A stretch of DNA of 64,000 nt from Hyalella azteca (taxonomy: Eukaryota; Arthropoda; Malacostraca; Amphipoda; Hyalellidae), in assembly GCF_000764305.2 (NCBI RefSeq), contig NW_025936210.1:1-64000 (forward strand). The letters are read 5' to 3'. How positions within the stretch are numbered: position 1 is the first letter of the stretch; every line of letters starts with the position of its first letter. The position numbers were made by a program, and so were the translations under genes. Shown here one piece after another: positions 58,375-61,973 of this stretch. The notes beneath the pieces were generated by a model that was given only the letters and a program-made list of their open reading frames with translations, did not search any database and was not told the origin of the DNA.

Positions 58375-60498
58375 CTGAAAGATATAGATTGTGTCATAAT
58401 CGAACATAATAGAAAACAAGTTTCCTTTGTCGCGCAAAAACTGAAACTATAATAGCAATATATAATTGATAAAAGATAAAAAGTCAGCGCGGCAAATATT
58501 TTTCATTCTCATGCGAAAATACTTGGATATTGAAAATAAACCTTTGTTCATACCGTAGTTCCTGTAAAATTGAAGTAACAAAACAGTTATCTTTACTTAC
58601 ACCACCAAGCGACAACAACCAGCTTGACAAGCTTTTTTTGATTCCGCTAACACCCGACATCAATGAAAGGCTTATAACTGCAGATACATTGGCTTGTGGA
58701 TACAAAAAACTACAACAAGTATTTGATAGCAAACCATTCAAAGAAGATCCCTATGTAAGCAGAGACAAGGTTCATTTTATTTCACACCATCGTTACACAA
58801 ATATTTTGCCATGATGATCTCAGCATCATTTCTGAGACAATGTAGGTTTAAAGAAAAAACTACAAGTATTTGATAGCAAACCATTCAAAGAAGCTCCCTA
58901 CGTAAGCAGAGAAAAGGTTTGCTTTATTTCACACCATTGTTACACAAATATTTCGCAGTGATGATAATTTCTGAGATAATGCAGTTTAAAGAACTCCTAC
59001 CTCCAAAACCACAGAAGCCAGTTTCCTTATAATCCTTGCAGAGGTCAGTGTAGGTTTAAGGAACTCTTACCTCCAAAACCACAGAAGCCCGTTTCCTTAT
59101 AATCCCTGCAGAGGTCAGTGTAGGTTTAAGGAACTCTTACCTCCAAAACCACAGAAGCCCGTTTCCTTATAATCCTTGCAGAGGTCAGTGTAGGTTTAAG
59201 GAACTCTTACCTCCAAAACCACAGAAGCCAGTTTCCTTATAATCCTTGCAGAGGTCAGTGTAGTTTAAGGAACTCTTACCTCCAAAACCACAGAAGCCAG
59301 TTTCCTTATAATCCTTGCAGAGGTCAGTGTAGTTTAAGGAACTCTTACCTCCAAAACCACAGAAGCCAGTTTCCTTATAATCCTTGCAGAGGTCAGTGTA
59401 GTTTAAGGAACTCTTACCTCCAAAACCACAGAAGCCAGTTTCCTTATAATCCTTGCAGAGGTCAGTGTAGTTTAAGGAACTCTTACCTCCAAAACCACAG
59501 AAGCCAGTTTCCTTATAATCCTTGCAGAGGTCAGGCTGGTAGTCCCATCTGACTGTGGAGCGGATGTGGTCAGGCGCCCTGATGGGGCCCTTAGCTCTGA
59601 CACTGCCGCTCGCAGCGTTGCCTGAAGGCGTGTCGCGTTTCTCGAAGAAATGACTGTAGTTGTTCAGGCCGCGGTAGACTTTGTCGTCAGCCGCTCCGCG
59701 AGTTTCCTGACGATGGAAAAACAAAGTGAGCAATAATTTATTTTACAGCATGAAATGAAATTACAACAAAGTGAGTAATAATGTATTTTACAGCATGAAA
59801 TAAAATTACAACAAAGTGAGTAATAATATATTTTACAGCATGAAATGAAAAAAATTAATTGCTGTAAGGATATTGTGGAGGGACAGTTATCTATTTATAT
59901 TATTATATACTATTAATATAAATATAACCATAAAGTCTTTCAAATCCAACAAAATTTACAGGTTAACTATTAGAATGAATATAAGACAGCGTTTTAACTA
60001 GCTAGATTTTTGTAAAAAAAATTTGATACGAAAATAAAATTCTGATAAGAGACTGGCTCTTGATACGAAAATAACTTTCAAATATATTTGGTAACGTAAC
60101 AGTATGAGATTAACAATAAAACAGGCCATAAATCCGGGCCAAAAGGACATGAAATAATGTTGAGAAATATTGGAAGAAAAGAGTATTGAAACATCAATAA
60201 AATTTTCAAAATATTTTTATAATCTTGCCCATTTGCCGAGATAATAAAAATCAATCTTTTGATTATAAAGTCACACACACTTTAGATACATAGATCACAT
60301 TACAAGTACTAAGATAACTCAGCAAGACTTTGGCCGTCACGGATATCTTAACTACAGAAACCCCACTTACAGGATGTTTACTAGTGACGCTGACACTCCA
60401 GCAGCAATAAAATGACTTAAATAAAACATTACCTTGTTAACCTGGAGTGAGCGTTCATAAACAGCCTGGGCGTCTCTGTCTTTTTCTGTTTCTAAGCA
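58022..60498 (-). CDS. RNF113A: RNF113A/Cwc24-like spliceosomal CCCH-RING protein, C-terminal half (three segments)
   Basis: RNF113A (yeast Cwc24) is a nuclear spliceosome component of the B/Bact stage; its zinc finger sits at the 5' splice site and its RING gives ubiquitin-ligase activity. Segments on minus: 60498-60433 ([20 protein letters not shown]), donor AACAAG|GTAATG; 59706-59487, acceptor ATCGTCAG|GAAACT, carrying [11 protein letters not shown] and [20 protein letters not shown], donor TTTGGAG|GTAAGAG; 58374-58022, acceptor TTTCAG|ACAGCTGC, TAG stop. Spliced, the CCCH finger (C-x8-C-x5-C-x3-H) is completed across the second intron (phase 1). The RING is C-x2-C-x11-C-x-H-x2-C-x2-C-x10-C-x2-C starting CLYCRQTF, and the tail is acidic (DDCDDSDD). 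The family's N-terminal ~170 residues are not found in the window. Directly upstream the frame continues into an unrelated repeat and domain. Confidence 0.93.
58705..58990. repeat. ~147-bp tandem duplication in the RNF113A zinc-finger intron
   Basis: Two copies carrying AGTATTTGATAGCAAACCAT, TCAAAGAAGNTCCCTANGTA and ATTTCACACCATNGTTACAC. The second copy runs straight into the first (distal) donor-bearing unit at 58991. Confidence 0.9.
58991..59530 (-). repeat. eight tandem copies of the half zinc-finger exon with its splice donor
   Basis: Each unit encodes [15 protein letters not shown], then a donor GGAG|GTAAGAG and the linker KSSLNYT. Donor positions (last exon base) are 59487, 59418, 59349, 59280, 59211, 59141, 59071 and 59001. 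The first five are 69 bp apart, exactly 23 codons. The last three are 70 bp apart because of one extra C in each linker (CTTAAACCTACAC), which creates a TGA at about 59185. The most distal donor is weaker (GTAGGAG). Using donors 1 to 5 would add 0 to 4 extra half-fingers without breaking the frame. Confidence 0.95.
59487..59706 (-). CDS. RNF113A: RNF113A middle exon (shortest form, donor 1)
   Basis: 220 bp, entering in phase 0 and leaving in phase 1. It encodes [20 protein letters not shown], a [20 protein letters not shown] block and [20 protein letters not shown]. These correspond to the most conserved part of the RNF113A family before and inside the CCCH finger. Longer forms end at 59418, 59349, 59280 or 59211. 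Confidence 0.92.
59721..59850. repeat. 45-bp tandem repeat in the RNF113A intron
   Basis: Nearly three copies of ACAAAGTGAGTAATAATGTA plus TTTTACAGCATGAAATGAAAT. The first lies immediately upstream (in transcription) of the acceptor of the 59706-59487 exon and supplies part of its T-rich tract. Confidence 0.9.
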
Positions 60499-61973
60499 CC
60501 TCTCTCTACCTAGAGCTTCTGGATTGCACCTCTCTCGTCTCAGGGCTTCTGGATTGCACCTCTCTCTCTTCTCAGGGCTTCTTGATTGCAACTCTCTCTT
60601 TCCAGAGCTTCTGGATTGCACCTCTCTCTTCCCAGAGCTTCTGGATTGCACCTCTCTCTTCCCAGGGCTTCTGGAATGCACCTCTCTCTTCCCAGAGCTT
60701 CTGGATTGCACCTCTCTCTTCCCAGAGCTTCTGGATTGCACCTCTCTCTTCTCAGGGCTTCTTGATTGCAACTCTCTCTTTCCAGAGCTTCTGGATTGCA
60801 CCTCTCTCTTACCAGAGCTTCTGGATTGCACCTCTCTCTTCTCAGGGCTTCTGGATTGTACCTCTCCATTCCCACAGCTTCTAAATTGCACCTCTCTCTT
60901 CTCAGGGCTTCTGGATTGAACCTCTCTCTTCTCAGGGCTTCTGGATTGCACATCTCTCTTCCCAGAGCTTCTGGATGACACCTCTCTCTTCTCAGGGCTT
61001 CTGCATGGCACCAGTCTCAGAGCAGCTTTCTTTAGATCCTCTCTATTTACACTGAGATATGGCATCTCTGTTGCCACATACTTGTTTGTTAAGGTGCCAT
61101 TCGCCTTGGCTCGTGCTATAGCACATGTGTAGAGATGAGGGATTTTTTTTGTATTGAGAGCTTCCATTCCCTTCAGTTTGAGGATTTTTCCAAACTGGAG
61201 CTTGTCACCATACTCTTCATCCAGTCTTGAGTATGCTTCTTTGAAAGCTTTGCACTCGTCAAGGACCACCCTGATCAGATGTGCATGAGTGACCTGTTTG
61301 TTGAAATCATGCATTGCATTGATTCCTGTCATGCCCCACCCTTTTGCTAACATGAGGAGAGACTTGATAAACTGTCCAATGATACCTCCAACAGTCTCCC
61401 CTGTTCCAGCGTTCAGACCAGTTGCATCCTCAAACAAATCCATCCCAACTTCTAAGCTCTTAACAGCATCAGTGATTCTCCCAAGTTTATTAGGCTCCCA
61501 CAGCTGACGGTAATTATTGATCACCACCTGGATCATTGGATTGTCACACCTAGCTGCTATCACTCTAAGTTGCCTTTCGATGTAGATCTTATTCTGGTCA
61601 GTGACAAGCTTGATAATGCTAGCCAGCAGAATGTATGCAGCACATTGCATTGCAACAAATGCTTCAGCCTTTTCTTTTTCTGTACGTGGCACTTGCAGAC
61701 CATCCCTGACCATGATGGGTTTGGGCTTCTTGTAGCTCCTGCCATCCTTTTCAAAGCCAACAAACAACTTTTCAGCAACTTCTCCTGGCATACCAAAAGT
61801 GTGGTACACTGCTGACATCATGGATTGAATTGTGATCTCTTTATTATAGATCATTATACATGTCGTTGTATGACTTGCAAGATGCACTTTATCGAAAAAG
61901 AGGGCTGCAACATTCCTTATAATGAGCTCAGTATTTACTTTAGGCCTGTTGATAAAACACGAAGGAAACATTT
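60433..61973 (-). CDS. 1541-bp fused exon: nucleoprotein-like domain, RS/KR repeat, RNF113A segment
   Basis: One open frame runs through the whole segment. It has a strong acceptor, GTAGTTTTTTTCCTTTCAG|AAATG, at 61973 and the RNF113A donor at 60433. Entry is phase 1 and exit phase 0, so it behaves as one in-frame internal exon. Residues 1-~320 form an all-helical-looking domain I do not recognise for certain (for example IKLVTDQNKIYIERQLRVIA, GETVGGIIGQFIKSLLMLAK, NKYVATEMPYLSVNRED). The style and size recall nucleoproteins of arthropod negative-strand RNA viruses (mononega- or chuvirus-like), which would make it an endogenised viral gene, probably lacking its N-terminus. Then come ~17 ten-residue repeats and the RNF113A residues. 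No internal stop or frameshift. A host gene of unknown family is the main alternative. Confidence 0.6.
60497..61012 (-). repeat. 30-bp coding minisatellite (10-residue RS/KR repeat)
   Basis: The landmark GCTTCT occurs 17 times (60515 to 60997) at exactly 30-bp steps, except for one 32-bp step (60545-60577) caused by an extra TC. In the frame of the upstream domain the unit reads SRS[SP][GE]KREVQ. After the 32-bp unit the same DNA is read in another frame as RCNPEALGRE, and that frame is the one that continues into RNF113A. Confidence 0.95.

Follow-up and report, generated by a model that had tools for sequence, protein, structure and literature searches.

An endogenous mononegaviral nucleoprotein-like reading frame within the RNF113A gene of the amphipod Hyalella azteca

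The RNF113A locus and its open frame

The only copy that we found of the splicing-factor gene RNF113A in the genome of Hyalella azteca has an endogenous viral element inside it, and the frame of this element is intact. The window, which is the whole 64,000-nucleotide stretch of DNA that was analysed, holds the downstream part of the gene on the minus strand. A short piece with the conserved TEKDRDAQA segment, the preceding C and a donor after 60433 (60433..60498) matches crustacean RNF113A proteins. It is followed by an exon with a CCCH zinc finger (59487..59706; zf-CCCH, 81% to P0001) and by the last exon, with a RING finger (58022..58374; RING models, 89% to P0001), which also matched the RNF113A chain 5z56_M in the PDB with E=1.3e-40. 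As the initial annotation had noted, the window does not contain the normal N-terminal part; it begins 3 kb past the window end on the same contig, also on the minus strand, where we found exon 1 (MSESKVPFIFKKRSRGG..., 68563-68473; end phase 1) and exon 2 (...SSSEDDL, 67203-67044; end phase 2).

No second RNF113A was found in the genome with whole-protein and exon searches. The CCCH exon and exon 2 had one genome match each. Among the 120 proteins listed of 2488 matched, the best named RNF113A was that of another amphipod, Hirondellea gigas (69% identity), and another protein had 91% identity over 67% of the RNF113A query. The whole H. gigas protein gave 15 genome matches at E<=10, with 11 inside the present gene, including repeated CCCH pieces; the remaining four were weak (E from 0.023 to 9.4) and were on three other contigs.

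The element sits between host exons. The RNF113A exons flank the viral open reading frame (ORF) in order and orientation on one contig with no N run between them, and this arrangement argues for the proposed endogenisation of a viral gene within RNF113A. N runs are absent from C1635:1-78855; one of 5307 bases lies in another part of the contig.

The open frame is long and continuous. It runs on the minus strand from 62010 to 60367 (547 codons stop to stop) and covers the single open exon, 61973-60433, that had been reported before. Reading from an ATG at 61971, it contains a nucleoprotein-like part of about 320 residues (61012..61971) with Pfam and PDB profile matches and no stop, then an array of 30-bp repeats, and then the TEKDRDAQA piece with its donor. 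Over the stretch in which the ORF frame has no stop in 320 codons, the two alternative minus frames are interrupted by 20 and 25, and the chance of 320 random codons without a stop at equal composition is about 5e-10. Directly before the viral ATG is a pyrimidine-rich acceptor-like site (61973..61992, 13/17 pyrimidines), in agreement with the strong acceptor described earlier, and the donor after 60433 is the true RNF113A donor, joining the exon at 59706 in phase.

What had been described as a 10-residue repeat is present, in corrected form, as a tandem array with a 30-bp unit and 17.2 copies (60496-61012, minus strand; Tandem Repeats Finder), RS-rich in the ORF frame. Units 1-14 read RSxxKREVQS-like, unit 15 is 32 bp, and units 16-17, before LETEKD, are in another frame.

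Several other repeats are in or near the gene. At 58983-59534 on the minus strand the end of the CCCH exon is repeated in tandem as eight near-identical 69-bp copies (98% matches), each carrying its own donor-like GGAG|GTAAGAG or a close variant. A 45-bp repeat (59720-59850, 2.9 copies) is directly before the acceptor of the CCCH exon, and tandem arrays that overlap one another, with periods near 61, 123, 183 and 306 bp, are at 56281-57913. A/T-rich inverted arms at 62877-63754 adjoin the viral ORF, with a perfect 20-nt inverted repeat between the arms (63197-63239); this region resembles a small mobile element.

Viral identity of the domain

The domain resembles nucleoproteins of mononegaviruses. 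It matched the Pfam model PF06407, BDV_P40 (the Borna disease virus nucleoprotein), with E=6.4e-7 and 29 bits against a curated cutoff of 26.3, residues 213-321 falling on profile positions 214-324 of 349. Searching the PDB with the single domain sequence gave weak matches (best E=0.17), 11 of 14 of them nucleoproteins. With a profile made from the domain and three fragments from the same genome, nucleoproteins were 17 of the 23 listed matches, including the first 16, with modest scores overall and a best E of 0.0041. The underlying four-row alignment, A2, replaced a poor alignment of seven fragments and still misplaces a few residues in two rows. The Borna p40 chain 1n93 had E=0.16 in the profile search, and other nucleoproteins, one of them from Ebolavirus, scored better; several of these we take to be filoviral. 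The domain is probably best called bornavirus-like by its Pfam match, with the PDB ranking placing other nucleoproteins above Borna p40.

The same genome contains related sequences, one of them beside viral polymerase ORFs. The domain matched three other places, with 39, 31 and 29% identity. BDV_P40 gave sub-cutoff matches in two of these relatives (E=0.04 and 0.13) and no match in the third. Downstream of one relative are four ORFs, two matching Mononeg_RNA_pol (E=1.7e-27 and 3e-21), one matching Mononeg_mRNAcap (E=2.3e-9) and one unmatched.

The three places differ in extent. L009 (G000:C2564:20000-29000) has, at 171-5514 on its minus strand, nucleoprotein-like ORFs and then the Mononeg_RNA_pol and Mononeg_mRNAcap ORFs, and appears to be a larger, broken mononegavirus element. 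L008 (4557-4874, minus strand) and L010 (3630-5025, plus strand) are nucleoprotein-like fragments with 39% and 29% identity to the domain, each over a short stretch.

It is extremely improbable, in our estimate, that the approximately 320 residues are instead a non-viral helical domain of the host. Such an origin would fit the single-sequence PDB matches, which reach only E=0.17, and the uninformative single-sequence AlphaFold model (pLDDT 35.8). It would also fit the absence of relatives from the collections searched: none of 2925 candidates in the protein collections matched the domain at E<=0.001, none of 7997 scored with A2 was a relative at E<=10, and among viral contigs six stretches fit the pattern, with no tblastn relatives among them. 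The protein-collection result is weak evidence because the species' own RNF113A was also missing among the listed matches. Against a host domain, the Pfam cutoff was passed, the nucleoprotein matches were consistent when a profile was used, and one relative adjoins viral polymerase ORFs. The BDV_P40 match above the curated cutoff, the PDB profile matches with their modest E values, and the three matching genome places, one with adjoining polymerase ORFs, lead us to read the domain as a putative mononegaviral nucleoprotein element, with support that is good but not overwhelming. The viral origin, which had first been proposed by resemblance only, is strengthened by these matches.

Splice phases, possible products and the missing stretch

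The viral ORF does not fit as an in-frame internal exon behind the first RNF113A exons. Exon 1 joined to 61973 gives TAA immediately, and exon 2 joined there reaches a stop after 11 codons. Of the correct phases that had been claimed at both junctions, the downstream one (60433 to 59706) holds and the upstream one fails for both exons, so that a chimera would be possible only if it started at the viral ATG.

Exon 2 can be joined to the array in frame. At the three AG|AAGC sites tested upstream of the extra bases of the 32-bp unit (61000, 60970 and 60580) the reading stays open through TEKDRDAQA, and the viral part could therefore be intronic. Joins of exon 2 to the two array AGs tested downstream of these bases, 60548 and 60518, are out of frame; of two AGs at the TEKD piece, only 60475 keeps the frame and 60491 loses it. 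Several points speak against the intronic reading, the two out-of-frame array AGs among them. The array acceptors are weak (8/17 pyrimidines at 61000 and 4-5/17 at the other 16 AGs, compared with 13/17 at 61973 and 11, 14 and 11 for three native exons), and exon 2 might splice to 61973 and hit the stop. In addition, the intact viral frame is also compatible with an ORF that is kept and functional. Given a correct assembly, we consider an RNF113A spliced from exon 2 into the array more likely than a chimera from the viral ATG.

The joined frame is a poor guide to selection. The downstream in-frame junction is produced by a single unit, the 32-bp unit 15, which shifts the reading before LETEKD. 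Two of the three frames are open in the array upstream of this unit, making the in-frame join weak evidence of selection. Read in the ORF frame, the 14 regular units differ by 11 non-synonymous and 6 synonymous changes, with 70:20 possible; the same units read in each other frame give 14:3. There is a slight lean to constraint, with numbers too small for claiming selection.

We also considered an origin of the array from RNF113A itself. Only one of 12 protein comparisons was low (21/2000 shuffles, against P0015), and we took this as no support; comparisons with the amphipod protein P0001 gave 1695/2000 and 526/2000 shuffles, and the DNA unit against an RNF113A exon gave 381/2000.

The viral element is either young or has been kept. 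Simulated frames were mostly lost with few substitutions: with point substitutions only, 242, 68, 17 and 1 of 500 frames were still open at 0.02, 0.05, 0.1 and 0.2 substitutions per site.

A true chimera is, in our view, an unlikely account of the locus. Transcription would begin in intron 2 and translation at the viral ATG at 61971, and the predicted 703-residue protein (nucleoprotein, RS-rich spacer, and RNF113A from TEKDRDAQA to its end) might replace RNF113A. The viral ATG frame does remain open when joined to the downstream RNF113A exons (703 aa), the genome search found no second RNF113A, and a neutral frame is usually lost by 0.1 substitutions per site (17/500 open in the simulation). 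On the other hand, the normal first exons persist upstream with good splice phases, and the downstream frame hangs on one 32-bp unit; the lack of a protein relative in the collections searched also counts against it, weakly, for the reason given above. The chimeric host protein of the initial annotation was not established, given the failing upstream phases, the dependence on the 32-bp unit, the lack of a protein relative of the domain and a locus without a conserved RNF113A stretch. Decidedly improbable is the full proposal that the predicted 703-residue protein is the animal's sole RNF113A, with a viral nucleoprotein replacing the N-terminus, joined through the RS-rich spacer and riding on the activated spliceosome.

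The locus lacks a conserved part of RNF113A. In other animals about 25 residues separate the end of exon 2 from TEKD, and the S, P, D, G, A and T of this stretch (PxDxGAT / GPxDMGAT) are invariant in 10/10 aligned proteins, picked from the 120 listed. GPxDMGAT was not found in the 106868-base contig, and was absent among the 15 whole-genome matches of the H. gigas protein, a search that a short exon could escape. A native exon 3 was not found by motifs, by alignment or by enumeration of AG/GT pairs in the right phases (14 candidates, none similar). The loss reflects a genuine rearrangement or else a fault in the assembly or the allele; in the former case the insertion, or an accompanying rearrangement, would have eliminated some 25 codons upstream of TEKDRDAQA.

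Truncation of RNF113A at its N-terminus need not be lethal. Yeast in which Cwc24 lacks residues 1-127 has no growth defect, with impaired splicing function and more than 10-fold more protein required for comparable splicing (PMC6821175). This finding also lends some support to the chimera.

An assembly or allele fault, which overlaps with our preferred explanation, is possible but doubtful. The stretch with its two tandem arrays would have been misjoined or taken from a broken allele, and the animal would have an ordinary RNF113A with a normal start of exon 3. This would account for the absence of a stretch that is invariant in 10/10 aligned proteins, in a gene that contains two tandem arrays and on a contig with a long N run elsewhere. 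However, the exons are ordered, C1635:1-78855 is free of N runs, and the missing stretch was matched nowhere else in the whole-protein genome search, with the caveat about short exons.

Based on the flanking exons, the profile matches and the splice phases, we favor, with somewhat better than even confidence, an endogenous mononegaviral nucleoprotein gene in RNF113A whose fused frame is mostly incidental. The gene would have been copied in the sense orientation downstream of exon 2 and upstream of the TEKDRDAQA piece, exon 2 would be spliced into the array, and the viral ORF would remain in the intron.

Comparison with known systems

Intact nucleoprotein fossils record past infections in hosts in which RNA viruses have been little sampled. 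A fused product at this locus, should there be one, would make it an unusual example of a viral gene that became part of the splicing machinery itself. Without such a product, the locus illustrates that an open frame with splice-like sites may suggest a fusion for which the flanking exons give no support.

Mononegavirales-like endogenous viral elements (EVEs) have been described in crustaceans, including H. azteca (Metegnier et al. 2015, PMC4573495). The H. azteca polymerase EVEs of that account cluster with Wenzhou crab virus. The nucleocapsid EVEs differ from the present element in that they were placed within Rhabdoviridae; the parts of the account available to us report no evidence of exaptation, and we noticed no RNF113A fusion in them (PMC4573495). 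Our literature search, which covered few subscription journals, found nothing on amphipod EVEs with bornavirus or on RNF113A with an EVE.

The present element shares with the endogenous bornavirus-like nucleoprotein elements (EBLNs) the presence of a negative-strand RNA virus nucleoprotein gene in an animal genome, here with a BDV_P40 match. It differs in having a crustacean host and a position inside a coding gene, and it is bornavirus-like by its Pfam match. Compared with RNF113A / Cwc24, the locus has the CCCH and RING exons, the N-terminal exons and the TEKDRDAQA piece, but the array and the viral ORF occupy the place of the GPxDMGAT stretch. The host-virus fusion genes enRep-M9l and hsEBLN-2 combine viral and host sequence in one gene, and protein expression has been shown for them according to the portion of the source that we used (PMC12300724), whereas the present locus is known from its DNA frame.
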